Shown here: one piece after another, positions 5,411 through 28,471 of the stretch
How positions within the stretch are numbered: the first letter of the stretch is position 1
How the letters are laid out: every line of letters starts with the position of its first letter
NCBI GenBank assembly: GCA_002862755.1
Contig: PKDY01000046.1
Coordinates: forward strand, 62,001 to 126,000
Direction of reading: 5' to 3'
DNA length: 64,000 bases
Source of the DNA: Flavobacteriaceae bacterium
GTDB taxonomy: Bacteria > Bacteroidota > Bacteroidia > Flavobacteriales > Flavobacteriaceae
The notes under the pieces: model-generated
Seen by the model: the letters and a program-made list of their open reading frames with translations, nothing else
What the model was told of the DNA's origin: nothing
Database searches by the model: none
Translations under genes and position numbers: made by a program

Positions 5411-6934
5411 TTATACTTGATAAATTTGATGTTGTAATAACTCTTCTAAATATTTCCTTTCATTCGATAATCTAGGAATTTTATGTTGTCCTCCTAATTT
5501 GTCTTTTTCTTTCAACCAGTCATAAAATAAATTAGGTCTTGCTACATTTACTTTTAACGGGTTTAAAGTCATATTATTATGTCTTTTGGCTTCATAATCA
5601 GAGTTTAAGAGTTGTAGGTTCTTGTCTAAAACCGTAGAAAAAGTTTGTAAATCTTCTGGGTTTACTTTAAATTCAATAATCCATTCATGTGCGCCTTTTG
5701 TTCGTTCTTGCATAAAAATAGGGGCAACGGTATAATCGACTACTTCACAATTTAATTCCTGACATGTTTTAGCAATTGCTTTATCTGTGTTTTCAACCAT
5801 TAATTCTTCCCCAAAAACATTTATGTGATGCTTGGTTCTTCCAGTAACCATAATACGATAAGGGTTGATTGATGTAAAACGAATCGTATCGCCAATTAAA
5901 TACCTCCAAAGGCCTGAATTAGTAGAAATAACAATGGCGTAATTTTTATGAAGTTCCACTTCGTTCAAAGGAATGGCCTTTTGTTTGCTCGTGCCAAAAG
6001 TATCCATTGGAATAAATTCATAAAAAATACCATAATCTAGCATTAATAATAATTCATTGGAATCGTTCTGATCCTGAATCGCAAAAAAACCTTCAGAAGC
6101 ATTATAAATTTCATAATACCTAAAATTATCTTTTGGAAATAATTTTTTATAGGGTTCGCGATACGGTTCAAAATTAACACCGCCATGAAAATAAACTTCA
6201 GCATTAGGCCAAATGTCTAATAAGTTATTTTTACCTGTGGTTTCAAGGGTTTTGTTTAAGAGAACCATCATCCAGCTAGGCACTCCAGCTAAACTCGTTA
6301 CATTTTCCTGAATGGTTTCGTTAATAATCGCAGGTAATTTGGTTTCCCAATCTCCCATAAGAGAAACTTTATTGCTTGGAGTAGAACTAAACTCAGCCCA
6401 AATAGGCATATTGTCAATTAAGATAGCAGATAAATCACCAAAAAAAGTATTGTTATCTTCATACAATTGTTTGCTACCTCCTAAACGTAAGCTTTTCCCG
6501 GTAAATAATTGGGAATCTTCATTATTATTTAAATACAAACACAATAAATCTTTGCTGGCTTTATAATGGCAAAGGTCTAAAGTTTCATTACTTACAGGTA
6601 TAAATTTACTTTTTGCGTTAGTAGTTCCGCTCGATTTTGCAAACCATTTTATAGGGGTATTCCAAAAAACATTTTGTTCTCCTTTGCGTGTTTGTTCTAT
6701 AAGAGGTTCTAATTCTTCATAAGTTGAAATAGGAATTCGTTCTGAAAAAGCACGATAATTTTTGATAGAGGCAAAATCATATTTTTTACCCAAATGCGTA
6801 TTCTCAGCTGACTTTATCAAATTTAAAAGCAACTCTTCCTGAACCTCATGCGGGTATTTTAAAAACAACTCCATTTGATGAATTCGCTTTTTTAAAATCC
6901 ACGAAGCAATTGAATTGATAATAGGAAATGCCAT
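5411..6934 (-). CDS. GH3 auxin-responsive promoter family protein (acyl-adenylate-forming)
   Basis: AKSSGTTNAKSKFIPVS and YNASEGFFAIQD motifs. Confidence 0.85.
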   Translation of the reverse strand: MAFPIINSIASWILKKRIHQMELFLKYPHEVQEELLLNLIKSAENTHLGKKYDFASIKNYRAFSERIPISTYEELEPLIEQTRKGEQNVFWNTPIKWFAKSSGTTNAKSKFIPVSNETLDLCHYKASKDLLCLYLNNNEDSQLFTGKSLRLGGSKQLYEDNNTFFGDLSAILIDNMPIWAEFSSTPSNKVSLMGDWETKLPAIINETIQENVTSLAGVPSWMMVLLNKTLETTGKNNLLDIWPNAEVYFHGGVNFEPYREPYKKLFPKDNFRYYEIYNASEGFFAIQDQNDSNELLLMLDYGIFYEFIPMDTFGTSKQKAIPLNEVELHKNYAIVISTNSGLWRYLIGDTIRFTSINPYRIMVTGRTKHHINVFGEELMVENTDKAIAKTCQELNCEVVDYTVAPIFMQERTKGAHEWIIEFKVNPEDLQTFSTVLDKNLQLLNSDYEAKRHNNMTLNPLKVNVARPNLFYDWLKEKDKLGGQHKIPRLSNERKYLEELLQHQIYQV

Positions 6935-15033: not shown

Positions 15034-15897
15034 TTAGCTTCTAACTTGTGCTTCCTTAAAATAGTTGGCTTTATAATAGCGATACAAATGGTCGTAAATA
15101 ATTAGTTCGTATTCGCGTTGGCGTGAGGTGAATTGGCGGTTGAGGAGCATGTGAATATGACTGCTTAAGAAAGAAAAGAGATCTATTTCTAAGTTTTTTT
15201 CTAAAAATACAGTACCCTCTTTAATTTTTTCAGTTTTATAAAGAATGGCTTCATATAAAGGGTTGAAAAGTTCTTTTTCTTCCCAATGTAGAAAAGAAAA
15301 AATAGATATTTCCATGTCGCGATACTGTTTATCTAATTCTTTTTTCAGTATTTTATCCGCTTGAAATTCATTTTTAAACGAAAGTTGCATGCGGTCTAAG
15401 AGATTGTATTTGTCTTCTAAAGTCAATGAAAAAAGAGATAAAAATTGGTCCACAGCCAAAAAACTAAATAATAAAGCTGTTGTATCATTTTCAAAGTAGG
15501 GTTTTAAAGCAATGTATTCTAAAATCAATTCACTGTCTGCTTGAAAGATATTTTCCGATATTTCATACGTATTGGAACCATATCGTTCCAATTCTCTAAC
15601 GTATGTATCGGTTTGAATTTTCCAAATCAAGTTTTGTTTTTGTAAAGATTCTAAAATAGGATGTAAGGTTGTAATTACTTTTCCTAAATTTTCAGGATTG
15701 TCTATTTTGAAACGCAATCGCAGATGAGCATCTGAATCATTATAACGAATGAAAAACCATTTAGAGATGTATTGTTGTGCTAACAGTTGTTCGATAGTAT
15801 CTTTAAGATAATCTACTAAAATGAAATCAGCGGTTTTTACACCACAGTAAATTTTAAAATATAACCATTCGCTTCCTAAATTAAATGTTCTTTTCAT
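15034..15897 (-). CDS. Thiopeptide-type bacteriocin biosynthesis / LanB elimination (SpaB C-terminal-like) domain protein
   Basis: WLYFKIYCGVKTADFIL...WFFIRYNDSDAHLRLRF; C-terminal HIHMLLNRQFTSRQREYELIIYDHLYRYYK. Confidence 0.88.
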   Translation of the reverse strand: MKRTFNLGSEWLYFKIYCGVKTADFILVDYLKDTIEQLLAQQYISKWFFIRYNDSDAHLRLRFKIDNPENLGKVITTLHPILESLQKQNLIWKIQTDTYVRELERYGSNTYEISENIFQADSELILEYIALKPYFENDTTALLFSFLAVDQFLSLFSLTLEDKYNLLDRMQLSFKNEFQADKILKKELDKQYRDMEISIFSFLHWEEKELFNPLYEAILYKTEKIKEGTVFLEKNLEIDLFSFLSSHIHMLLNRQFTSRQREYELIIYDHLYRYYKANYFKEAQVRS

Positions 15898-15921
15898 AAA
15901 TAAATTTTAAAGATAACTTCA

Positions 15922-18099
15922 CTATTCTCGGAAGAAAGAAACAATAAACTGATTGGCATAATTATTATTTTCTTCATCTTTTACGACACTTTCATTGGTA
16001 AACAAAAATTCTTCTAAAATAACTTTACCATTTGTTTTAATGGTTTTTTGTAGAATATCAAAACAAATTTCAACCTCTAAATCGAGTAATAATGTATTGT
16101 CACCACTTACGATAGTCACATATTGTGGGATTCTTTTATTGGTTTTCCAATTTGGGAAAGTGGTTGAGAATTGCAAATCTTTGATGTCTTTTTCAAACAA
16201 ATACCATTTGGCTTTCGCTAGAATAACCTCTTTATAAACCACTCTGGGAAAAGTTGTATAATGATGCGGTAAATTTCCCCAGTCCATTTTATAAACGGGG
16301 TTGAGATTTTGACCCTGCAAATCGGCTAAAAACTGATAAATGGGTAAGGAGTTGTTGCTGTAGTTATGCGCGTTAGACAAACAAGGAACGACGATTTGAT
16401 TCTGTTTTTTAGATTTTAAAATAAGGGTATTATTTACTACCGAAATCCATAAATCTGCAATGTCAATTTGTTTTTCTTTAGGTGTAATACTATTTGCTAA
16501 ATATGGAATTTCGTAGTCTCTTAAAACGGGTCTTCTTAAAATATTACCGGTTCTTGATTCTGGAATATGCGCAATTTCAGCAAAAAGAACATCTTTTGAT
16601 AGTGTCGCTTCTTTAGTAGTTATTTCATTTGCAAGTTGTTGAATTTTAGCCTCTCCATTACTAAAACGCCCGATTAATTTGGCAGCACTAAAATTTCCTA
16701 AAGATTCTAAAACAAGTGTTTCTTTATTGTCAATTTGGACCACTTCAATCATAGCAGAAAAAGTAGGAGGTAAGAGTTTGTTTTTAGTTTCAAAAGTTGC
16801 AATATCCTCGTCTTTTAATTCTATAATTGTAGCTTTTTTCACCAGGGCATTTTTTAATTTGGTCTCTAAAATGTAATCCCATCGCGACCAATTTTCATTT
16901 TTTGAATTACTGTTGTTGTGTTTGTTAATGGATAACCGATCCAAAATAGGATGGGAGTCATTCATTCTTACGTCTTGTAGGTAACCAATCCCAACTTCAG
17001 TGTCTAAAACTACTGTTAAAGGCATTTCTTGCGTTTCATATCGGTTTAAAAACGCTTTTTTAAAGGCGTCTAGGTTTCGATTAGGAGTAGATTCCTGAAT
17101 GCGTTCCAAAAAAGAAATGGCTTGTTGTAATTGTTTTTTTGTTTTGTATTGGAGTGTAGCCGTATTGGTTTTTAAATACAAATCGGTTTGTAAAAGATAT
17201 TTTTCTTCAAAATCAACCTCTAAACGGCTTACATTTTCTTTGATTTTTTGAGAAAGCGTAAAATGGTTGTTGAGGTTAACTTCTTTTAAATGCGCTGTTA
17301 TTTCTTTTAGAAGCGACTTTTTAGCATCCACTGTGTCCATTTTTTCTAAAATTGCCAATACTCGTTCAATTTCAGAATTTCCCGTTACAGTTGCTTCTAG
17401 GTTGCTCACTAAAAACTGGTTATCAATCAATTCGTTTACAAATGCTTGGGCTTCTTCCAATTCAGAATTATCTTCAATGATAGCATTTGCCAATTCTGTT
17501 ATGGTTTTACCAAAGGTTGCTTGTTCATAAATAATATCTATAAAAGGATTTTTACGAATAGCAGCTAAGGTATGTTCGCGTCTTTTTTTAATAAAACGGT
17601 ATTCTACATAGCGGTAGAAGTCACCAATACTGTAGAGTGAAGAATTAGGGTAATAGACTAATTGTTCTCGTATAGTCGCTGTTTTTCCTAATTCGAGTAA
17701 CCAATGCGTCCAAAACTGCATGTCGAATTGTGTATGCGTTGTAAACGTTTCTTTGTTTGCTAGTTGTATTGCGGTTTCTGAAGAAAATTCGCCAGTAGTA
17801 CAACCTGCAAAAAGTCCGAATGGAGTGGCTCTAGAACTGATTCGGGCGATGTATTTGAATAAGCTTTGTTCTAAATGCTTGGCCTTTTCTGGGTTGTAAG
17901 TAGCGGGTTGATCTTTATACTTTTCTAATTCTTTGAACAATTCGGGAGAAGCTAAAGCAAGCGCACTTTTAATAACGGGTTCCTCTAGAGTGGCAAATAA
18001 TTTTTCCCTATTATATTCTTTCAATAATGTAGTGTAAAAAGAAACCGGTAATAAAGGGGTTCTTAGTACAAAAGTTGAGAAAGCGGAAAAAGGGTTCAT
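15922..18099 (-). CDS. Lantibiotic dehydratase, N-terminal glutamylation half (split LanB)
   Basis: TFVLRTPLLPVSFY, YIARISSRATPFGLFAG, RISVND-like VRMNDSHPIL region; adjacent to the elimination-domain gene. Confidence 0.9.
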   Translation of the reverse strand: MNPFSAFSTFVLRTPLLPVSFYTTLLKEYNREKLFATLEEPVIKSALALASPELFKELEKYKDQPATYNPEKAKHLEQSLFKYIARISSRATPFGLFAGCTTGEFSSETAIQLANKETFTTHTQFDMQFWTHWLLELGKTATIREQLVYYPNSSLYSIGDFYRYVEYRFIKKRREHTLAAIRKNPFIDIIYEQATFGKTITELANAIIEDNSELEEAQAFVNELIDNQFLVSNLEATVTGNSEIERVLAILEKMDTVDAKKSLLKEITAHLKEVNLNNHFTLSQKIKENVSRLEVDFEEKYLLQTDLYLKTNTATLQYKTKKQLQQAISFLERIQESTPNRNLDAFKKAFLNRYETQEMPLTVVLDTEVGIGYLQDVRMNDSHPILDRLSINKHNNSNSKNENWSRWDYILETKLKNALVKKATIIELKDEDIATFETKNKLLPPTFSAMIEVVQIDNKETLVLESLGNFSAAKLIGRFSNGEAKIQQLANEITTKEATLSKDVLFAEIAHIPESRTGNILRRPVLRDYEIPYLANSITPKEKQIDIADLWISVVNNTLILKSKKQNQIVVPCLSNAHNYSNNSLPIYQFLADLQGQNLNPVYKMDWGNLPHHYTTFPRVVYKEVILAKAKWYLFEKDIKDLQFSTTFPNWKTNKRIPQYVTIVSGDNTLLLDLEVEICFDILQKTIKTNGKVILEEFLFTNESVVKDEENNNYANQFIVSFFRE

Positions 18100-18143
18100 G
18101 GAGTATATTAATATAAATTTTTATGAAGTAGTTTGTAAGAATT

Positions 18144-20333
18144 TTATTTTTTTAATTTAAAATCAGGATGATTTAACTGCCAATAAAAAAATGCAAACAT
18201 ATCTGTCAAATGTTTATAAGATTTTTCAATATTTTGAGATGCACCGTGACCTCCATTAATATCTGCATAAAAAAAAGTTGAATTTAAATCTAAACTATTT
18301 GCTTGTAATTTTGCAGCAAATTTTGCAGGTACCCAAGCAATTACTCTAGAATCATTCATTCCTGCAGTCACAAGAGTTACAGGGTATTTAATTCCTTTTT
18401 TAATATGGTGATAAGGATCCATTTCTAACAATGAATTGAACTCAGCTTCATTTGTAACTGTACCAAATTCTTTTACGTTATTTTGTCCATTTGGAGTGGT
18501 TTCAAAGCGTAGGGTGTTTAATACACCAACGTCAATATAAGCTGCTTTAAATAAATCTGGTCTTTCGGTAATAGCTCTACCTATTAAAATTCCTCCTGCA
18601 CTTCCACCATAAATTGCAATTTTTTCTGGATTAGTATAACCAGCATTAATTAAATATTCAGTTGATGAAATAAAATCTTTCCAAGAGTTTGGTTTTGTTT
18701 CTTTATAACCTCCTTTATGCCATTTGTCACCTTTTTCTCCTCCACCTCTTACATGGGTATAAACAATAATACCTCCATCTATTACCCATTGTAGCATATA
18801 TGGATTAAAATATGGGGAATTAGAGGAACCGTAGGCCCCATAACCAGTTATGTAAGTTCTGTTATGACCGTTTTTAACAATATTTTTGTTGTGAATAATT
18901 GTAACAGGTAAATCAATACTATCGTGAGATTTAATTTCTAATTCTTGTACAACTATATCATTAAAAGAATCATTGTATTTATTAGTATTGAGGTCTTGTA
19001 AGTTGAATTCGTTTTTATCAATGTCAAATTTGTATCTCTCCCTAGATTTTGTCCATCCAGAAATATAAAACCACATATCATCTTTATCACTACCTGATAT
19101 TTTAGATATACTTAATGAACCAGCAACTGATGGAAGTTTAATTTCAGAATACTGATTATTTATATATTTGTATACTTTTGATATAACTCCATTCTTTTTT
19201 GTAGTAAAAATAAATCCATTTTTAATAGAAGTTATTGATCTAAAGTTTTCATTTTCTATTTCATTAATAATAATATTATTACCTGAGAAATTAGGATTGT
19301 CTAAATTGGTTTTACATATTACACTTTTGTTAGACTTTTCTGTGATGTATATAATATCTCGATTTTCTAAAATTACAAAATATTGAATTTTATCTTCTTT
19401 TTTATAAAAAGGCTTCCATGTTAATTTAGATGATATATTATCAGTTTCTGCATAGTAATTATCAACAAATGTTGTTGCCCCACTAACTTTTCCAATTATA
19501 ATTTTATGTTTTTTTGATAAGTAATTAATTAAAGGGAAGTCTTCTTTTTTAATATTTAGTTCAGGGTTGTTTTCTTTAGAAAAAATATCTAAATGCTTAT
19601 TAGTTGAGTCTCCTATTTTATAAAATACAGACTTTGTGTTTTTAATAAAATCTTCTGATTTGTTATCAATATTAGGAATATGAGTATATATAATACCAGA
19701 ATCATCTTCAAGCCACCTTATGCCCCCTAGATCACTTGGCCATGTATTAGTAATTACATAAGGTAAGATCTTTTCAGTTTTAATATCTAGAAAAACTATT
19801 TCAGCAATTTCTTTTCCTCCTTCTGTTAAGGCTAAAGCAATCTTTGTTCCTGTGTTGTTTGGTGCATATGTTGAGATGACCTTCTCAGTTTTATTTTTTC
19901 GGTTATATTCATCTATGTCAAAAACAACTTTTTCTTCTCCATTAAATCCTTTTCTCAGACAGATAAGGTTTTTATTTGATCCAGAGATGAATTTTGTATA
20001 AAAATGTAAATTATTTTTAAGTACCAAAATAGATGAATAAAAATCACCATCATTATCAATGTTTTTGAAACGTTTATATAAACTATCTCTGTTAGATATA
20101 GAATTTAAAATATTTTCAGTATAGTTTGAGTTTTGTGTCATCCAATTTATAACTGATGAATCTTTTAAATTTTCCATGTTTCTATATTCATCAATAATTT
20201 CAATACCATAATACATTTCTTTTTCAGGTATTGATTTAGCATAAGAAATTTGATTTTGACTATAGAGTCTATTGTGATTAATAAAAATAAGTATTAGAAT
20301 TAATATTTTTTGAGACTTATGTTTAATTGACAT
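18144..20333 (-). CDS. Prolyl oligopeptidase family serine peptidase (S9), exported
   Basis: Signal peptide; IYGGSAGGILIGRA nucleophile, MNDSRV and NGGHGA for catalytic Asp/His. Confidence 0.92.
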   Translation of the reverse strand: MSIKHKSQKILILILIFINHNRLYSQNQISYAKSIPEKEMYYGIEIIDEYRNMENLKDSSVINWMTQNSNYTENILNSISNRDSLYKRFKNIDNDGDFYSSILVLKNNLHFYTKFISGSNKNLICLRKGFNGEEKVVFDIDEYNRKNKTEKVISTYAPNNTGTKIALALTEGGKEIAEIVFLDIKTEKILPYVITNTWPSDLGGIRWLEDDSGIIYTHIPNIDNKSEDFIKNTKSVFYKIGDSTNKHLDIFSKENNPELNIKKEDFPLINYLSKKHKIIIGKVSGATTFVDNYYAETDNISSKLTWKPFYKKEDKIQYFVILENRDIIYITEKSNKSVICKTNLDNPNFSGNNIIINEIENENFRSITSIKNGFIFTTKKNGVISKVYKYINNQYSEIKLPSVAGSLSISKISGSDKDDMWFYISGWTKSRERYKFDIDKNEFNLQDLNTNKYNDSFNDIVVQELEIKSHDSIDLPVTIIHNKNIVKNGHNRTYITGYGAYGSSNSPYFNPYMLQWVIDGGIIVYTHVRGGGEKGDKWHKGGYKETKPNSWKDFISSTEYLINAGYTNPEKIAIYGGSAGGILIGRAITERPDLFKAAYIDVGVLNTLRFETTPNGQNNVKEFGTVTNEAEFNSLLEMDPYHHIKKGIKYPVTLVTAGMNDSRVIAWVPAKFAAKLQANSLDLNSTFFYADINGGHGASQNIEKSYKHLTDMFAFFYWQLNHPDFKLKK

Positions 20334-20343
20334 ATAAATTATA

Positions 20344-21999
20344 TTATTTGTTTTTTGTTAATTCCTCTGCCATTTTCATAGCATTATAGGTGTTTAAAAT
20401 TTTACCCGATTTACATAATTCAGAAAAAGGCACCATTTCGTTTTTAGTTCCAGGTTTAACCACTTTTTTATCGATAGTAATCCCTGATTCTACTATTATT
20501 TTTTTTACTTCTTGTACTGTTAGATTGGGGTAGTATAACCAGATTAAAGCAGCCGTTCCTGAAACCATAGGAGCTGCTAAAGATGTTCCAGAATCATATG
20601 TATATTGATTATCCGGAATAGCGACGTAAATGTCTTCTCCAGGAGCAAATATATCTACATTGTTTTTTCCATAATTCGAATAAGGAGTAACCAAAGTACT
20701 ATCTATTCTTTTGGAAGTAGAACCAACCGTGATTAGGTTTTGAGTTAATTCAGTATTATTTAGATAACTAAAATCGGTAGGATAAAATGGGGTTACGTCA
20801 ATATTAGACGATGCATTGCCAGAAGTGTGTACTACTAAAACATTTCTTTTTTCTGCATATTGTAAGGCTTGTGTTACAATATCTTGATCTAAGGAAAATT
20901 GTTTTGAAAAAGACATGTTGATTACCTTGGCACCATTATCAACAGCATAATAAATTGCGTTTGCGATATCCTTATCATATTCATCGCCAAATGGAGAAAT
21001 GATTAAAGGCATGATATAGATGTTATTGTGAAATCCTTTTACGCCTTTGTAATTATTTCGATTTCCAATAAGCACACTAGAAACTTTTGTATTATGAGAG
21101 TTTAACCTTTGATCAGAATTTAAATTGTTATTACCATATCCTTTTTCTAATTGATAATTTTTAATTTTTTTCCTGTCATCATAATTTAAATTTAATAATT
21201 TATGTACAATAGAATCATTATGCTGGCTAGAACTTTTCATTCCTTCAATGGTAAAGTTGTACCTTTTTATCATTCTCATATAATAAATTAAATCTGAAAA
21301 AGTTCTTTCAGAGGGTACATCATAATCTACTCTTTCTGCAAAGCGTTTTTCAACGCCTTTATGTAATTGATATAAACTGTCTAATTGTTTAAAAGTATAG
21401 TCATCATTAGGGAAATAGTAATGTAAAGTATCTTTTGCAGGGTAATAGGCAGAAATAAGTACATTTTCTTCTTTCAAATATCTTTCGTAATATTTTTTAT
21501 CGTCTAAATATTTTTCAAAGGCTCTCTTATACTCTCTATAGATTGGTTTGTTTTGTAATTGGATTGTATCTTTATTTTCAAAATCATATTTATATTTTTT
21601 AAGAATCCGTACAAATTCAAAATTTACAAAGGCTTGTAAATTACTATCACCAACTCCGATAAAGTTCCATCCATTCGTGTCATCAATATAACCATTTTTG
21701 TCGTCGTCTAAACCATTATTGGGAATTTCATTTTGATTGACCCAAAATTTCCCTTTTAAATCTTCATGATTGATATCAATTTGTGAATCGATAGTTGCAA
21801 CTATAATTTTATTTTTTGTATTCTTAAAATCTTCTTGATACCATTTGTTTAAAGAAATACCGTATACGGAGTCTTGGATGTAATCTTTATGTTGCCATAA
21901 GATTAAAGTATCTGCATTTTTTTTTACTTCATGTTGTATTTTTAAAGGCTTACAGTTACAAAATAATAGAAGCATAATTAAAATTACAGATACTTTCAT
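20344..21999 (-). CDS. S8 family (subtilisin-like) serine peptidase, probable lipoprotein
   Basis: TIDSQIDINHEDLKGKFW (Asp), LNSHNTKVSSVLIG (His), DSGTSLAAPMVSGTAAL (Ser); N-terminal LLFCNC. Confidence 0.9.
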   Translation of the reverse strand: MKVSVILIMLLLFCNCKPLKIQHEVKKNADTLILWQHKDYIQDSVYGISLNKWYQEDFKNTKNKIIVATIDSQIDINHEDLKGKFWVNQNEIPNNGLDDDKNGYIDDTNGWNFIGVGDSNLQAFVNFEFVRILKKYKYDFENKDTIQLQNKPIYREYKRAFEKYLDDKKYYERYLKEENVLISAYYPAKDTLHYYFPNDDYTFKQLDSLYQLHKGVEKRFAERVDYDVPSERTFSDLIYYMRMIKRYNFTIEGMKSSSQHNDSIVHKLLNLNYDDRKKIKNYQLEKGYGNNNLNSDQRLNSHNTKVSSVLIGNRNNYKGVKGFHNNIYIMPLIISPFGDEYDKDIANAIYYAVDNGAKVINMSFSKQFSLDQDIVTQALQYAEKRNVLVVHTSGNASSNIDVTPFYPTDFSYLNNTELTQNLITVGSTSKRIDSTLVTPYSNYGKNNVDIFAPGEDIYVAIPDNQYTYDSGTSLAAPMVSGTAALIWLYYPNLTVQEVKKIIVESGITIDKKVVKPGTKNEMVPFSELCKSGKILNTYNAMKMAEELTKNK

Positions 22000-22020
22000 A
22001 AAATTAAATTTTAAAGTTTA

Positions 22021-22224
22021 TTATCTTGGATTACATAAAATACCTGAATCACTATCTGGATCAACTGGTATATTGGGATCATTAGTGTCGATAGGTTTTT
22101 GAGGAGGTTTAGTATCTGTATTAGTGTTAGCTCCATTTGAACCACCATAGATTTTATTAGCATTATTTAATTTAGCTAATTGAAATTTTTCAAAATCAAA
22201 TTTTTTTAATTTTTTTTCTTTCAT
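22021..22224 (-). CDS. Candidate RiPP precursor peptide (67 aa), GG-type leader
   Basis: MKEKKLKKFDFEKFQLAKLNNANKIYGG|SNGANTNTDTKPPQKPIDTNDPNIPVDPDSDSGILCNPR; Bacteroidota GG-leader style, first gene of the LanB operon. Confidence 0.82.
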   Translation of the reverse strand: MKEKKLKKFDFEKFQLAKLNNANKIYGGSNGANTNTDTKPPQKPIDTNDPNIPVDPDSDSGILCNPR

Positions 22225-22250
22225 TTTTTTTAATTTTTATTTTTGATTCA

Positions 22251-22258
22251 CAAATATA
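22251..22258 (-). promoter_or_regulatory. -7 box TATATTTG of the RiPP operon (CAAATATA on + strand)
   Basis: Perfect match to Bacteroidota TAnnTTTG, 26 nt upstream of the precursor ATG; no TTG at the usual -33 spacing. Confidence 0.55.
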
Positions 22259-22302: not shown

Positions 22303-22322
22303 TCGATATTCATGAATTACGC
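22303..22322 (-). promoter_or_regulatory. Dyad element copy C (GCGTAATTCATGAATATCGA on minus strand)
   Basis: Matches copies A/B at 16-17 of 20 positions; 44 bp upstream of the TATATTTG box. Confidence 0.55.
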
Positions 22323-22331
22323 GTTTTTCTT

Positions 22332-24047
22332 TTAATTAATTATTTGATTTTCAGTCTCTTTCATGTTTTTTATTTCTTTTATAAAATAGGAAGGTTTTAT
22401 ACCTGTTCTTTTAAAAAATGCTTTGGAAAACGATTCAGAGGTATTAAAACCAGCTTCTTCTGCTATCGCTGCAATGGTAAATTTTCTCAAATCTTTATTG
22501 TTTTTTAATTCTTCAATAATGAAATCAACTCTCAAGTCATTAATATAATTAGAAAAGCTTTTACCTTTTTCAGAATTTATTACAACTGAAAGATATTTTG
22601 AATTTGTATTAAAAATTTTAGATAAACTCTGAATAGTAATGTTTGCTTTTAAAAAATATTTGCCATCTTCAAAAGAAATTAACTGTTTTGAAATATTCGA
22701 TAGTATTTCATCAGAAATTATAGAATTACTACTTTCTCTAATTATGTTTGTATCTGGAATTTTGTTATTTTTTTCAAAATCAGATTTTTCTAACATGAGT
22801 TTTTTAAATCGGTTTTTATATTCCTTTTTTAATTTTTGTTGCTTATATATAAATATAAGACATAGAATTGTAATTATTATAAAAATAATTAGGATCCAAT
22901 TGTTTTTTTTATTTATGCTGTTAAGTTCGTTAATGATTGTTTCTTTTTCTCTTATTAAGTTAGGAATATCATATTCTTTGCTTAGTTTTTTTGATAATCC
23001 TTTGTAATTCACCTGAAAAATGCTATCTATACTCATTAGCGTATTAAGATAAGTTAACTGTTTTTCAGTATTTCCTTTTTCTTTATAATAATTTATTAAA
23101 TAACGATATCCATCTACAAATTCTGGATTTATGTATTTTATTTGTTTATGTATGCTATCTATTTTTTCATAATAAATGGTAGCAGTGTCTTTTTTGTTTA
23201 ATCCTTCATAAGATTTTCCATAATAATAATAAGATGCTATTTGGTTCATTTTATTATCGAAGTTAATCATAATATGTAAAGCTTTATTAATACTGTCTAT
23301 TGCAGCATTATAATCTTTCTTTAAACATAATGTTGCACCTTCATTTAAAATGAAACAACCTTTAAGTCTTTCATTATTATTTTTAATAGACTCTTTATAC
23401 CCTAATTTGTTATAGTATGAAGAAGAATCTAATTGCGTTAATGCTCTATGAGCATCTGCAATAGCAAATGTGAGGTTTAGATATGTTGCATAATATTTTT
23501 TTTTCTTTTCTTTATTTCTTTTGTAAAAGGAGTAACATTGTTTATATAATTGTAGAGCCTCAGCAATTTCTCCCATATCTTCAGATTTAATTAGAGCAAT
23601 TGAAAATTTAGCTTCATAAAAATAGTTGGTATCATTCGTTTTTTTTGACAAATTTTCAAGATTTATATAGGTTTCAATTGCTTTTCCAAAATCTCTTGTA
23701 TTATCTAATTTATTAGCTTTTTCGAAATAAGCTATTTTTAAATCTTTTATATTATTGACTTTCTTTGAATATAAAATGACACTATCTAAATATTTTATTG
23801 ATTCATAAGGATCACTAATTAAAGATTTCATGTAATAACCTTTAGGTCGTAATGAATCATTATTTTCAAGTTTAGCTTTGAGTAAATATAAATCTGAAAA
23901 TTTTCTTTGTGATTTTAAATCTTTAGAATTTTGAAGAAATCCTTTTTTTAACTCATCATAACTCATTTTTTTTAAATCCATTTCACTTACTTGTCCAGAA
24001 GACAATTGAAATAAGAATAATAAACTAAGTAGAATGATTTTTTTCAT
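22332..24047 (-). CDS. Membrane-anchored TPR protein with C-terminal AraC-type HTH DNA-binding domain
   Basis: Signal sequence, TPR-like region, TM NWILIIFIIITILCLIFIY, C-terminal FTIAAIAEEAGFNTSESFSKAFFKRTGIKPSYFIKEI. Confidence 0.88.
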   Translation of the reverse strand: MKKIILLSLLFLFQLSSGQVSEMDLKKMSYDELKKGFLQNSKDLKSQRKFSDLYLLKAKLENNDSLRPKGYYMKSLISDPYESIKYLDSVILYSKKVNNIKDLKIAYFEKANKLDNTRDFGKAIETYINLENLSKKTNDTNYFYEAKFSIALIKSEDMGEIAEALQLYKQCYSFYKRNKEKKKKYYATYLNLTFAIADAHRALTQLDSSSYYNKLGYKESIKNNNERLKGCFILNEGATLCLKKDYNAAIDSINKALHIMINFDNKMNQIASYYYYGKSYEGLNKKDTATIYYEKIDSIHKQIKYINPEFVDGYRYLINYYKEKGNTEKQLTYLNTLMSIDSIFQVNYKGLSKKLSKEYDIPNLIREKETIINELNSINKKNNWILIIFIIITILCLIFIYKQQKLKKEYKNRFKKLMLEKSDFEKNNKIPDTNIIRESSNSIISDEILSNISKQLISFEDGKYFLKANITIQSLSKIFNTNSKYLSVVINSEKGKSFSNYINDLRVDFIIEELKNNKDLRKFTIAAIAEEAGFNTSESFSKAFFKRTGIKPSYFIKEIKNMKETENQIIN

Positions 24048-24127
24048 TGGAATTAGATGGCGTATTTGTTTGAATTTTGAAGTTGTAAATATCTACTTTT
24101 TCCTTTATATGAAAATAATATTCTCTA

Positions 24128-24179
24128 TAAATTCCTGAAATACCAGTCGAAATTCACGAATGTCGAGTTACATTGCTTG
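24128..24179 (+). repeat. 52-bp direct repeat copy A, containing dyad TCGAAATTCACGAATGTCGA (24147-24166)
   Basis: 46/52 identical to 28392-28443. Confidence 0.85.
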
Positions 24180-24199: not shown

Positions 24200-24207
24200 T
24201 AGATTTG
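24200..24207 (+). promoter_or_regulatory. -7 box TAGATTTG, 33 bp downstream of dyad copy A
   Basis: Matches TAnnTTTG; same spacing as at copy B. Confidence 0.5.
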
Positions 24208-24406
24208 AATCAGAGAAATAAGGAAATTTTAGCACCTCATTTTTTCAAAGGTAGTTGGCCACTATATTGGGATTGATTCAGCTGATAGTAACCCATAAAA
24301 AAGACGAGCAAAATAGGAATGGATAGATTTTCTAAAACAAAACTATCAAACAAGAATAAAGAAAGAGTTGGCTTTTTCTTGTTTTACGAAGTACCAACTA
24401 AAAAAA

Positions 24407-24451
24407 ACAGTCCTGCCTAATTATGTTTTGACGAACACCTAGTAGGACTGT
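24407..24451 (+). other. Inverted repeat ACAGTCCT...AGGACTGT in the 5' leader of the mini-protein cassette
   Basis: 8-bp perfect stem, 29-nt loop, 26 nt before ATG; preceded by AGTTGG...CCAACT pair. Confidence 0.45.
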
Positions 24452-24477
24452 GATTAATTTAATTAAAGAACAAATTT

Positions 24478-24708
24478 ATGAAAAAAGTAATTTTTAGTTT
24501 AGTATTTTTAATGATGACTTCATTGTGGTCATTTGCAAATACAAATAGTGGACAAATTTTGGATCCAAGTTGTGAAGAAGCTATGTTTGATGCTATGGAG
24601 TGGGCTTTGGAAGAAAACTTTGATGATCAAACTGTAAGTTATATTGGAAACTGGGCGTATGCGAATTGTTGGTTAAGACAAAATTCGGAATTAAACCCTT
24701 CTTTTTAA
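24478..24708 (+). CDS. Small secreted 2-Cys protein, paralog 1 (76 aa)
   Basis: Signal peptide; C-x3-MFDAM-x-WA-x-E-x3-DDQ-x5-GN-x-AYA-x-CWL. Confidence 0.75.
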   Translation: MKKVIFSLVFLMMTSLWSFANTNSGQILDPSCEEAMFDAMEWALEENFDDQTVSYIGNWAYANCWLRQNSELNPSF

Positions 24709-24719
24709 TTTATTAGGTC

Positions 24720-24965
24720 ATGATTATGAAAAAAATAGTTTTAAGTACGCTTATTTTTGTTTCGTTGTCTTCTTTTACTACAAGATTAACATCACAACAA
24801 GTAGCGGTAGGTTATTGTGATGATAGGATGTTTGATGCTATGGATTGGGCCGCAGAGGCTGGATTAGATGATCAACAAATTGCAAATGCTGGAAATGCTG
24901 CATATGCAGAATGTTGGTTAATGAATAGAAACCTAATAAGAGATTCTGGTCAAGGAGTTGATTAA
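24720..24965 (+). CDS. Small secreted 2-Cys protein, paralog 2 (81 aa)
   Basis: Signal peptide; 20/35 identity without gaps to paralog 1 across the Cys-Cys segment. Confidence 0.75.
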   Translation: MIMKKIVLSTLIFVSLSSFTTRLTSQQVAVGYCDDRMFDAMDWAAEAGLDDQQIANAGNAAYAECWLMNRNLIRDSGQGVD

Positions 24966-25003
24966 AATGAAAACAGGGGGCAATGTCCCCTGTTAAATAA
25001 AAT

Positions 25004-25687
25004 ATGATGAAAAATAAATTTATACTACTATTTGTACTATTTGCTATAACTACTGTTGTTTCTCAAAATAATGTAGCAAAATATAATGTTCTTTTTAAAG
25101 TTCAAAATCCAAAAAGAGAGTCGGCTTTTTTTGATAAAATTACTGAGGCTTCTAAAAATCTTGAATTTGAATTAGTTTTTAATGATAGTGTTTCGTTTTT
25201 TTCAATTTCAAAAAAAATGATTTTAGATGACAGAAGTTTTGAAAAAGCTGCTTCTAAAATAATAAGTAAAGGAGATTATTTATATAAAAAAGATAACTCT
25301 TCATTTTATGTTATAAATGATAATCTTTATTATGAAAAGAAAAAAGACTCTTCAGATTGGAATATAACTACTGAAGCTAAGGTAATACAAAATTTAACCT
25401 GTTATAAAGCGACTAAAATTAAAAAAGTGACCAATCAGAGAGGAACTTTTAATCATGAAATTACAGCATGGTTTTGCCCTGAAATTCCTTTTAGTTATGG
25501 GCCTAACGAGTATAATGGTTTGCCTGGTTTGATAGTTGAATTAATTGAAATGCCTGCCACTCATTTTGTGTTAAAATCAATTACTTTTCATAAAGACAAT
25601 ACAGAAATTCTTCAATTGAATAAATTGAAAGAAATTGATGAAAAAGCCTATTATGATGCTATTAAAGCTAATTTGCCTGAAAGATAA
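25004..25687 (+). CDS. GLPGLI family protein
   Basis: Signal peptide and literal YNGLPGLIVEL motif. Confidence 0.9.
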   Translation: MMKNKFILLFVLFAITTVVSQNNVAKYNVLFKVQNPKRESAFFDKITEASKNLEFELVFNDSVSFFSISKKMILDDRSFEKAASKIISKGDYLYKKDNSSFYVINDNLYYEKKKDSSDWNITTEAKVIQNLTCYKATKIKKVTNQRGTFNHEITAWFCPEIPFSYGPNEYNGLPGLIVELIEMPATHFVLKSITFHKDNTEILQLNKLKEIDEKAYYDAIKANLPER

Positions 25688-28354
25688 ATGAATATTAATT
25701 TTTTTTGGTTGTTAATTTTAAGTGTTTCTTTTTCTTTCTCTCAAACCATTACAGGAACGGTAAAAGATAGTTTACAAAATCCATTAGCCAATGCCAATGT
25801 AATAGCCAAACCTTTACTAGAAAACAAAGGACTTAAATTTGCAATTGCCGATCATTTAGGGAGGTATAAACTGGAACTGGAAAAAGAAGTACCTTATGAA
25901 ATTAAAGTTTCCTATTTAGGATATAAGGAATCTTTGTTAAAAGTAGATACCAATAGCAATCTTAAAGAGCATCATTTTGTATTACAAGAAAGCGGGCAAC
26001 AATTAAAGGAAATTGTAATCGACTATGAGTATAAACCTATAGTGGTAAAAAAAGATACCTTAATTTATAATGTGGCTTCTTTTGCAAATGGCAATGAGCG
26101 CAAAATGAAAGAAGTGCTAGAAAAGATGCCAGGTGTAGAAGTCGACAAAGATGGAACTGTTACGGTACAAGGTAAAAAAGTGACTCAAATGATGGTGGAA
26201 GGCAAATCCTTTTTTGGTGGCGGTTCTAAATTAGCCGTAGAAAATATTCCAGCCGATGCATTAGACAAAATTGAAGTAATTGACCATTTCAATAAAGTGG
26301 GTTTTCTAAAGGAAGTGTCAGATAGCGATGAACTGGCCATGAATGTAAAGCTCAAAGAAGAGAAAAAGAAATTTGTGTTTGGAGATGTGGAAGCGGGTGC
26401 TGAGGTGGCAAACGATAATGGATTTCATTTGTTGCACACGGCTTTGTTTTATTACAGTCCAAAAACCAATGTAAGTTTTATTGGAGATGCGAATAACATA
26501 GGAAAAAGAACCTTTTCTTTTCAGGACTTGATGCGTTTTCAAGGAGGTGTGAGTAGTTTTTTAAATGATAGAAAACAATTGACTAATTTGTACGCTTTTA
26601 CAACTGATAATACCGATGTTATTGAAAATAAATCGCAATTTGGAGCTTTAAATTTTCAACACGATCTTAATTCAAAACTGGCAGTTGAAGGTTTTGCCAT
26701 TTTTTCAAAACTATTTAGCGCTTCTTTAACGGAAAGCAATAACGAATATTTGCAAAATAGCGCTTTTACTTTTGAAAATAGAACGACCCAAAAAGAAAAT
26801 AAAACGGTTTTAGGTATTGCAAATGTTAAGCTCGATTACAGCCCAACTGACCATTCTAAATGGTTTTACAATGCGCAATTGCAATCGAGTGCCAACGATG
26901 CTGCGTCTATGTTGAACTCCATTAGAGATGGACAACAAAGTGTTTTTGAAACCCTAAACGAAGCAGAAAACAATCAAATCAAGCAATTTATAGAATGGCA
27001 CAAACAGTATAAAAATACCAAGCATACCACGACTTTTGTAGTAAATCAAAGTTATGAGAACAACACTCCTACGAATACCTGGTTAACCGATACCGAATTT
27101 TTAGCAGGGTTGATTCCTTTGGAAAATGATAGTTTTTATGAAATTCAGCAAGTTAAAAAAGTAAAAAATAACACTATAGATGCTTTGTTCAAGCATTATT
27201 GGATTGTCAACAATTACAATCATTTGTATACCAATGTAGGAAATAATTTTGGCACCACTCATTTGCAAATTTCAGAAAAGCAGTTCGTGTCAGACGGTAC
27301 GGTTAACGATTTTGCCAATGGTGGTTTTGGAAATGATTTGGAGTATGTCCTGAATGATTTTTATGTAGGCTTGGAATACAAATTCAAAATAGGAAAATGG
27401 ATCAATAAACCGGGAATCTATGCTCATAAGTATCATTTACAAACCCATCAAATTGCAGCTACCTATACTGTAAGAAAAACGTATTTGGAACCGCAATGGG
27501 ATAGTGAGTACGAGTTCAACCAATCGGAAGCACTGACTTTTAAGTATCAATTGGCAAATGATTTTCCAGATGCAACCCAACTATTAGAACGCTATACGTT
27601 GCAAAGCTATAATACTGTTATTAGAGGAAATGCTTTATTGAGTAATGAGCGTTTTCATACGGCTAGTTTGCGTTATAAAAAAAACAGTATGTATCGCGGT
27701 TTAATGCTTTTTGCAAACATTAATTTCAATAAAAAGATAAGAACCATTAGAAATAAAGTAGAACTGGACGGAATCAATCAGTTTAACACGCCTATTATTA
27801 CAGACAATCCAGAAACCAATTGGAGAGCCTACGGAACGCTTAGTAAAAAAATCCACCGTTTTCGATTGCAGTTCAATTCCAGCCTAAGTAGGTTCAGTTA
27901 TATTCAAACCTTAAACAATCAAACGACTACTAATAATAGAAACAATCAGGTTGTAGGTGTAAAGATAAGTACAGCTACTAAAAAATGGCCTAGTGCCAGT
28001 GTAGGGTATAACAAAAGTTTCAGTCAGTTTAGCGGTTTAACTTCGTCCCAATTTACAAATGACGTTTTTTCTTTCAGTTGGGATATCGACTTCTTAAAAT
28101 CCTTTACTTTTAAAACCGATTATGAAGTGACGTTTAATGAAAATAGTCAAAATCAAAAAACAACCTATCGCATTGGTAATGCCTATTTGAGTTATCAAAA
28201 GAAAGATCATCCGTTGCGCTTCGAACTTTCAGCACGCAACTATTTGAATAATGGAACAATAATTAATAATTCCTTTTCAGATTTTTTAATTTCCAATTCC
28301 ACAACTTTTACTTTGCCAAGAATTGTCTTATTATCAATAAGTTATAAATTATAA
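25688..28354 (+). CDS. Outer-membrane beta-barrel protein with carboxypeptidase-like regulatory domain (TonB-dependent receptor-like)
   Basis: ITGTVKDSLQNPLANANV N-terminal domain, plug-like region, long beta-barrel; abuts the GLPGLI stop codon. Confidence 0.85.
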   Translation: MNINFFWLLILSVSFSFSQTITGTVKDSLQNPLANANVIAKPLLENKGLKFAIADHLGRYKLELEKEVPYEIKVSYLGYKESLLKVDTNSNLKEHHFVLQESGQQLKEIVIDYEYKPIVVKKDTLIYNVASFANGNERKMKEVLEKMPGVEVDKDGTVTVQGKKVTQMMVEGKSFFGGGSKLAVENIPADALDKIEVIDHFNKVGFLKEVSDSDELAMNVKLKEEKKKFVFGDVEAGAEVANDNGFHLLHTALFYYSPKTNVSFIGDANNIGKRTFSFQDLMRFQGGVSSFLNDRKQLTNLYAFTTDNTDVIENKSQFGALNFQHDLNSKLAVEGFAIFSKLFSASLTESNNEYLQNSAFTFENRTTQKENKTVLGIANVKLDYSPTDHSKWFYNAQLQSSANDAASMLNSIRDGQQSVFETLNEAENNQIKQFIEWHKQYKNTKHTTTFVVNQSYENNTPTNTWLTDTEFLAGLIPLENDSFYEIQQVKKVKNNTIDALFKHYWIVNNYNHLYTNVGNNFGTTHLQISEKQFVSDGTVNDFANGGFGNDLEYVLNDFYVGLEYKFKIGKWINKPGIYAHKYHLQTHQIAATYTVRKTYLEPQWDSEYEFNQSEALTFKYQLANDFPDATQLLERYTLQSYNTVIRGNALLSNERFHTASLRYKKNSMYRGLMLFANINFNKKIRTIRNKVELDGINQFNTPIITDNPETNWRAYGTLSKKIHRFRLQFNSSLSRFSYIQTLNNQTTTNNRNNQVVGVKISTATKKWPSASVGYNKSFSQFSGLTSSQFTNDVFSFSWDIDFLKSFTFKTDYEVTFNENSQNQKTTYRIGNAYLSYQKKDHPLRFELSARNYLNNGTIINNSFSDFLISNSTTFTLPRIVLLSISYKL

Positions 28355-28391
28355 TCATTTAGTGCTTCTTAAAGTGATAATGTATTTTATC

Positions 28392-28443
28392 TAAATTCCT
28401 GAAAAACCAGTCGAAATTCACGAATATCGAGTAATATCGTTTG
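28392..28443 (+). repeat. 52-bp direct repeat copy B, containing dyad TCGAAATTCACGAATATCGA (28411-28430)
   Basis: 46/52 identical to copy A. Confidence 0.85.
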
Positions 28444-28463: not shown

Positions 28464-28471
28464 TAGTTTTG
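28464..28471 (+). promoter_or_regulatory. -7 box TAGTTTTG, 33 bp downstream of dyad copy B
   Basis: Matches TAnnTTTG; spacing identical to copy A. Confidence 0.5.

Follow-up and report, generated by a model that had tools for sequence, protein, structure and literature searches.

Products of LanB dehydratases commonly have antimicrobial activity, and nisin acts as an inducer of the operon that encodes it. The RRNPP proteins of Gram-positive bacteria (Rap, PlcR, Rgg) are cytoplasmic and require re-import of their peptides. Pinensin-type class I lanthipeptides of Bacteroidetes employ a split LanB and precursors with leaders of the form LxLxKx5L..GG, as catalogued in a lanthipeptide survey that was anchored on LanC and applied a Cys filter (PMC7268733). 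TPR proteins have also been recorded near graspetide loci, where their role is unclear (PMC8939145). In the literature searched, we found no description of a LanB system lacking LanC or of a TPR-AraC pheromone receptor, nor of a peptide pheromone in Flavobacteria whose receptor and operator are identified. Here we describe an operon, within a 64-kb stretch of flavobacterial DNA (the window), that is probably an autoinducing pheromone system; its predicted signal is a Ser/Thr-dehydrated RiPP made independently of LanC, and its predicted receptor a membrane TPR-AraC protein.

The locus shares with the pinensin type the separate LanB glutamylation and elimination proteins and a Bacteroidetes-type leader ending in GG, but cores of its family contain 0-2 Cys, and LanC is absent across the loci of its clade and from 29 whole genomes. 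A LanC-anchored survey with a Cys filter would by design leave out most of this family. With RRNPP systems it has in common an autoinduction logic and a TPR receptor for a processed peptide, the domain being supported by PF13424, a structural model and TPR folds in the PDB, and the binding predicted. In place of a cytoplasmic location and an Xre-type HTH or phosphatase output, the regulator features a signal peptide, a TM helix and an AraC domain; its TPR domain would be extracytoplasmic on a membrane-anchored protein, and the peptide would be LanB-modified. As in the pheromone-controlled class II bacteriocin regulons of lactic acid bacteria, that of plantaricin among them, and in nisin autoinduction, the inducer is of the double-glycine type, and a common operator sequence precedes the inducer operon as well as, in relatives, operons for bacteriocins and exporters. 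Here, however, the conserved regulatory partner is a single TPR-TM-AraC protein, a one-component membrane regulator rather than a histidine kinase with a response regulator, the host is Gram-negative, and the inducer would be a dehydrated RiPP.

Five intact genes occupy positions 15034-22224 of the minus strand, with intergenic gaps of 21, 10, 44 and 24 bp, in agreement with the same-strand spacing of roughly 10-45 bp given in a preliminary description. Domains were assigned by scanning ten locus proteins with Pfam/NCBIfam profiles. The 67-aa precursor (22021..22224), divided into leader KKFDFEKFQLAKLNNANKIYGG and core SNGANTNTDTKPPQKPIDTNDPNIPVDPDSDSGILCNPR (one Cys) by profile and alignment with relatives, is followed by an S8 subtilase with a lipoprotein-like N-terminus and an intact D/H/S triad (20344..21999; PF00082, E 7e-41), and by an S9 prolyl oligopeptidase with a signal peptide (18144..20333; PF00326, E 4e-46; PF02897, E 2e-28). 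The last two genes encode the LanB glutamylation half (Lant_dehydr_N, 15922..18099; PF04738, E 7e-139), which aligns to NisB, and the elimination half (Lant_dehydr_C, 15034..15897; PF14028, E 1e-65; TIGR03891, E 3e-60). The split LanB proposed earlier is upheld, as both domains belong to known Pfam/NCBIfam families and retain their catalytic residues. Across the family, the YxxR and RxTPFG motifs are kept in 47-50 of 50 LanBN proteins, and the key Arg/Glu/His residues in 48-49 of 49 LanBC proteins. The hallmarks of thiopeptide loci were not found: none of the ten scanned proteins is a YcaO, and the locus encodes one PF14028 protein with no second, [4+2] cyclase-type copy, the only other PF14028 domain in the genome being fused within a LanB on contig C3.

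The locus LanB falls in a single clade (50 rows, SH-aLRT 98), none of whose members has LanC nearby; the nearest branches outside this clade do carry LanC. No LanC was found in about 60 loci of the family, and 29 near-complete genomes (at least 98% complete) possess LanB with PF05147 LanC absent genome-wide. The lack of an in-cluster cyclase, first remarked on for this locus, is thus a property of the whole clade. Searches with collected LanC/PCAT sequences and profiles found neither LanC nor an ABC exporter in the window. The rest of the host genome, which the preliminary description had suggested searching, does contain both: two LanC genes and a C39 transporter on C3, and a further C39 transporter with HlyD on C48. 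The LanC genes, however, both belong to a separate, complete lanthipeptide cluster. Taken together, the LanC-less clade, the 29 LanC-less genomes and the occurrence of Cys-free cores place LanC outside the system; judged from sequence, the pathway differs from standard lanthipeptide biosynthesis.

The atypical dehydrated product envisaged earlier agrees with these data, and the peptide is probably Ser/Thr-dehydrated. Cores of the family are short, polar and fast-evolving, often with the pattern DDPxDTN..SSxxC; that of the window resembles the core of Flavobacterium sp. J27. It is conceivable, if somewhat doubtful, that the product is a one-ring lanthipeptide in which a Dha/Dhb-x-x-Cys ring forms spontaneously or through a LanC acting in trans, which would be compatible with signalling. 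Such a ring fits the 35 Cys-containing cores, where position -3 is Ser/Thr in 31 and position -4 in 30 (base rate 0.21), and the host has its two LanC genes, yet these sit in a cluster with Cys-rich precursors of its own, LanB occurs without any LanC in the 29 genomes, and of 44 cores 9 contain no Cys (30 contain one and 5 two). Dehydration itself may not be obligatory in every family genome, since a few (G282, G288 and G204) retain regulator, precursor and protease without an intact split LanB, the LanB being broken in G288 and G204.

A sixth gene (22332..24047, minus strand) and the operators around it did not feature in the preliminary description. The gene encodes the proposed receptor-regulator, with a signal peptide, TPR-like helical hairpins, a TM helix and an AraC DNA-binding domain (PF13424/PF12833; AlphaFold2 mean pLDDT 84), and nearly every family precursor has a TPR-AraC gene about 81-155 bp away on its 5' side. 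Upstream of the precursor, the -7 promoter box TATATTTG (TAnnTTTG; 22251..22258, minus strand) ends 26 nt before the ATG, where it had been placed at the outset; the box precedes 45 of 56 family precursors (3.1 expected). A candidate operator palindrome, CGATATTCATGAATTACG (22304..22321), is centered about 53-54 bp from this box and, with a PWM score of 20.1 bits, is among the weaker sites, which reach up to 31. The 18-bp palindrome is found in 49 of 56 precursor upstream regions at no more than 4 mismatches, 29 of them exact, and its spacing to the -7 box is 52-54 bp in 40 cases and 43-44 bp in 52, against about 0.2 expected per distance. Exact operator and promoter combinations occur in 33 of 400 genus genomes (reversed control, 0/400), 32 of which are among the 51 genus genomes with the precursor. 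The adjacent TPR-AraC regulator and these operators suggest a signaling function. A reading of the palindrome as the terminator of the regulator gene was rejected given its 2-nt loop and constant spacing to the promoter.

A second candidate operator, CGAAATTCACGAATGTCG (24148..24165; 25.4 bits), lies between the regulator and a divergent operon, 43 bp from the box TAGATTTG (24200-24207, plus strand). The operon behind it (24478..28354, plus strand) is a probable target and encodes two small secreted Cys-containing proteins (24478-24708 and 24720-24965), a GLPGLI protein (25004-25687; TIGR01200) and a TonB-receptor-like protein, or TBDR (25688-28354; PF13715). Directly after the TBDR gene is a third candidate operator, CGAAATTCACGAATATCG (28412..28429; 23.3 bits), again 43 bp from a box, TAGTTTTG (28464-28471, plus strand). 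In Flavobacterium profundi (L123), a homolog of the target operon has this operator too. Operons behind 43-bp sites encode class IIb-like double-glycine bacteriocins, HlyD exporters, TBDR and GLPGLI proteins, and in the host genome such sites also precede a grasp-with-spasm graspetide cluster on C6 (TIGR04192/TIGR04193). Clusters of this Bacteroidetes type are a likely regulon target in the host, the graspetide being the proposed target and not the signal; the link consists of two sites in one genome. These data bear on whether the dehydrated peptide is itself an antibiotic that the TPR-AraC protein merely autoregulates. Regulator and operator would suit autoregulation, for which nisin offers a precedent, but this reading is unlikely given the presence of this operator ahead of distinct operons for bacteriocins, exporters, TBDR proteins and the graspetide, short, polar and rapidly diverging cores that co-vary with the sensor domain, and scanned operon proteins that match no immunity family known so far (Pfam/NCBIfam).

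The co-variation between core and sensor was assessed with partial Mantel tests, whose significance may be overstated among related sequences. Core and TPR divergence remain correlated given LanBN, S8, LanBC and the DNA-binding domain (partial r 0.36, with a p of 0.002, the lowest value attainable in 499 permutations), and the core's correlation with every other protein or domain given TPR is about zero or negative. Leader divergence is not tied to TPR. Along the regulator, the core signal falls from 0.43-0.50 at TPR residues 20-230 to 0.11 at the DNA-binding end. Nearest neighbors by TPR outperform those by LanBN (18:6, p 0.011); the comparison with the DNA-binding domain alone is not significant (10:7), and has less power as this domain evolves more slowly. 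By these measures, core divergence follows the TPR domain and not LanB, the S8 protease or the DNA-binding domain. Physical linkage was considered as a source of this co-variation and rejected, as the gradient runs opposite to gene proximity, with the signal lowest at the DNA-binding end adjoining the precursor. TPR domains are generic binding scaffolds, and a fold search with the regulator returned generic TPR proteins in the PDB, with the peptide-binding RapI and Rap-pLS20 at ranks 38-48 only. The regulator could thus answer locally to another cue, such as other envelope peptides, unrelated to the core; we consider this quite improbable, since the core-specific co-variation is strongest in the N-terminal TPR repeats and regulator-precursor pairs are duplicated together in L049.

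The export signals ascribed to both proteases are confirmed, and the S8 lipoprotein start is kept in relatives. Pairing of S8 with S9, by contrast, is not the defining feature it had seemed: relatives have one to three S8 proteins, S9 alone, S15 or mixtures, so we rejected the pair as a hallmark. The claim that no exporter is present stands for this locus and window but not in general, as C39 transporters are present in 20/20 relatives searched and near the operon in 12/18, often as PCAT/HlyD; a missing exporter was accordingly discarded as a distinctive trait. A neighboring PCAT was also rejected as the dedicated exporter of the dehydrated peptide, having double-glycine bacteriocin precursors of its own, which makes shared export merely possible. 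That the operon is what is left of a typical class I lanthipeptide cluster in decay, its LanC and transporter already gone, is very improbable: LanBC is reduced to its last 39 codons in L122/L123 and LanB is broken in two genomes, yet catalytic residues persist in 50 LanBN, 49 LanBC, 51 of 51 S8 and 11 of 11 S9 proteins, within a single deep LanC-less clade with operators conserved at fixed spacing.

For the pheromone system that we favor, the LanB pair, from its family and intact active sites, would bind the leader and dehydrate Ser/Thr in the core, and a C39 transporter encoded in trans in the host genome would cut the double-glycine leader during export. The S8 lipoprotein and S9 protease would trim the peptide extracytoplasmically, and the periplasmic TPR domain would bind the mature core, as the co-variation suggests. 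The AraC domain would then activate from the palindrome both the precursor operon (53-54 bp) and effector operons (43-44 bp), here the adjoining small-secreted-protein/GLPGLI/TBDR operon and the graspetide cluster, and in relatives double-glycine bacteriocins and HlyD/PCAT exporters. We lean slightly towards a broader reading, in which Flavobacteriaceae possess a class of LanB-dehydrated, LanC-independent RiPP pheromones with cognate membrane-anchored periplasmic-TPR/AraC receptors. Peptides and receptors would together govern a set of interchangeable effector operons, antimicrobial or outer-membrane in function, by way of a shared palindromic operator, to which many effectors would add a conserved, structured RNA leader at the 5' end. 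If so, these bacteria of soil and water would gain a peptide pheromone, a hitherto undescribed kind of bacterial chemical messenger, and LanB would serve to make a signal in the absence of the cyclase that normally accompanies it, which would explain the family's escape from LanC-anchored mining. It would also provide a handle on the induction of bacteriocin and graspetide production, with receptor, signal, operator and promoter each named.

The 5' leader of the target operon (24216..24480, plus strand) is conserved and contains a pseudoknot-like motif at 24269. It matched no Rfam family, and aligning two distinct leader elements together gained nothing. Two similar copies of this leader are found on C6 of the host genome, and further copies in relatives.

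The five same-strand, closely packed genes of the preliminary description are borne out by their coordinates: precursor (22224-22021), S8 protease (21999-20344), S9 protease (20333-18144), the LanB glutamylation half LanBN (18099-15922) and the elimination half LanBC (15897-15034) lie on the minus strand with gaps of 21, 10, 44 and 24 bp, and the TAnnTTTG box placed 26 nt before the precursor ATG is indeed there as a -7 box, TATATTTG. Its split-LanB and protease identities also hold; domain assignments are unambiguous, LanBN can be aligned with NisB and LanBC with structurally solved elimination domains of other LanB proteins, and catalytic residues are invariant or near-invariant in relatives (50 LanBN, 49 LanBC, 51 S8, 11 S9). 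The operon is real and conserved, and probably functional. What had been overlooked is its partner regulator gene (22332-24047), directly 5' of the precursor; this gene's product combines a signal peptide with TPR hairpins, a TM helix and an AraC domain (structure model pLDDT 84). A fold search matched its TPR part to peptide-binding TPR proteins in general, Rap proteins among them but ranked lower.

The locus is best read as a pheromone operon and not a cryptic lanthipeptide, and is accordingly classed with peptide-pheromone regulation. In the proposed pathway, the LanB pair would dehydrate the precursor in the cytoplasm, and a C39 transporter would export the peptide and cleave it at the GG; the leader, read directly and unscored, has the spaced hydrophobic residues typical of double-glycine leaders. 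S8 and S9 would trim the peptide outside the cytoplasm, the periplasmic TPR domain would sense it, and the AraC domain would activate the operons of precursor and effectors. Genes present, operator sites and statistics are direct observations; the chemistry, transport, binding and activation are inferred.

The preliminary description had seen no cyclase or exporter between 13.8 and 28.9 kb, and searches with LanC and PCAT sequences and profiles detected neither LanC nor an ABC exporter within the 64-kb window. The proposed search of the rest of the 3.7-Mb genome (window on contig C11; nearest named relatives Flavobacterium) found two LanC, both with a PCAT inside one separate, complete class I lanthipeptide cluster on contig C3, and a second C39 transporter on C48, accompanied by an HlyD-like protein and two peptides of the double-glycine type. 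The C3 cluster (264.3-273.9 kb; L008/L009) comprises four tandem Cys-rich precursors, a fused 1025-aa LanB, the PCAT and LanC genes, and a further ORF resembling a luciferase-type monooxygenase (L009 500-1444).

LanBC relatives are present in 38/200 genus genomes, and the precursor profile matches 51/400 genus and, more weakly, 23/400 family genomes; 68 relative loci were taken from named genomes. The usual order runs from the TPR-AraC regulator through precursor, protease(s) and LanBN to LanBC; in some other genera the regulator comes after the LanB genes. Protease complement varies (one to three S8, S9 alone, S8 with S9, or S15), and S8 proteins have lipoprotein-like N-terminal starts. Two regulator-precursor pairs adjoin each other in L049. 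A lanC in a conserved syntenic extension, envisaged earlier, was not found: none of the relatives' operons in the LanC-less family contains LanC. Regulator-precursor-S8 units in L220-L223 and L226 lack a local LanB; elsewhere in those genomes LanB is split (G236, G319, G378), only fused (G282) or only a fragment (G288). In L122 and L123 (F. profundi, Flavobacterium sp. NRK F7) LanBC is reduced to its last 39 codons (87-92% identity), representing locus loss in close relatives; L123 also retains the regulator and GLPGLI genes.

The LanC-less family forms a single clade (98% SH-aLRT) when 110 LanB proteins are placed in one tree (short search, midpoint root), and because the branches nearest outside it have LanC, LanC loss at the base of the clade is suggested. 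Whole-genome searches found LanC absent from 10/18 and 21/37 good precursor-carrying genomes, and 29/31 LanC-less precursor-bearing genomes carry LanB (LanB genome search plus the split-LanB set from a 200-genome screen). The family is not a standard LANTHIPEPTIDE pathway. Among 44 cores, nine have no Cys, 30 have one and five have two; of the 35 with Cys, 31 have Ser/Thr at -3 and 30 have it at -4, so the constant feature is dehydratable Ser/Thr close to the C-terminus (Ser at -4 and -6 in the window core). A spontaneous one-ring product is possible in Cys-containing members. An L062 core (5840-6000, Flavobacterium sp. J27) homologous to the window's (GTGNDTNTDTKPIKP..DSDSGVLCGCNSN) has ATA at the expected start codon, whether a non-standard start, an error or a pseudogene. 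Class I precursors carrying LxLxKx5L/GG leaders, together with split LanB, are already on record for Bacteroidetes from a survey that used LanC as anchor and discarded Cys-free candidates (PMC7268733), and earlier work had remarked on TPR proteins close to RiPP loci, their role unclear or signalling conjectured (PMC8939145; PMC10352776). No description of a LanC-less LanB/TPR-AraC system was found in the literature searched.

That the TPR domain may read the core is supported chiefly by co-variation. Core and TPR distances correlate at 0.49-0.55 controlling for LanBN (30-34 loci), and at 0.36 controlling for LanBN, S8, LanBC and the AraC DNA-binding domain (DBD) together (p 0.002, the lowest value that 499 permutations allow), in partial Mantel-type tests that are imperfect for related sequences. 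Reverse partial correlations are about zero or negative, and in the same analysis the leader showed no TPR-specific link. Nearest-neighbour tests gave 18:6 for TPR vs LanBN (p 0.011) and a non-significant 10:7 for TPR vs DBD. When the regulator is divided into 60-residue segments, residues 20-230 give a core signal of 0.43-0.50, which drops to 0.11 at the DNA-binding end; hitchhiking with the neighbouring precursor was rejected, since this gradient runs opposite to that expectation.

A palindrome, CGRAATTC-NN-GAATTYCG, lies upstream of precursors (exact in 29/56, at most four mismatches in 49/56), its centre 52-54 bp from TAnnTTTG in 40 cases. A second class, one helical turn shorter, has 43-44 bp in 52 cases; chance expectation is about 0.2 per distance. 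The 43-bp class is predicted to drive the genes that follow it, namely double-glycine peptides (one passing TIGR03949, E 6e-9, others weak), HlyD (L195, L197, L220), TonB-receptor-like proteins (L052, L056, L194, L198) and GLPGLI or small secreted proteins (L123, L208, window). The exact operator-promoter pattern occurs in 33/400 genus genomes vs 0/400 for a reversed control, a count excluding the window's own sites, which have mismatches; 32 of the 33 fall among the 51 precursor-positive genomes. Predicted window operators lie at 22304 (precursor operon, 54 bp), 24148 (facing 24478, 43 bp) and 28412 (43 bp). By position, two paralogous small secreted proteins at 24478-24965 (76 and 81 aa, two Cys each, no assigned family) are putative regulator targets. 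Near-identical 40-bp direct repeats (24125-24170 and 28390-28435), each with an operator, bracket the small-protein/GLPGLI/TBDR segment, as if it had been inserted or duplicated through recombination. On contig C6 the operator occurs twice more with a promoter at 43 bp: at 85.6-91.0 kb (L238) an operator and a 37-aa single-TM protein precede a grasp-with-spasm graspetide cluster, and a second operator copy lies 5.4 kb away with a degenerate effector.

Effector transcripts share a conserved 5' leader of ~250 nt (window 24216-24480; L238 5119-5393 and 10486-10760; many relatives), for which an Rfam search returned no match. It has hairpins with apparent compensatory changes and a pseudoknot-like motif, GGG..CAGCTG..GTAACCC-(A-rich)-GAGC, present at 15/52 effector vs 0/40 precursor promoters.
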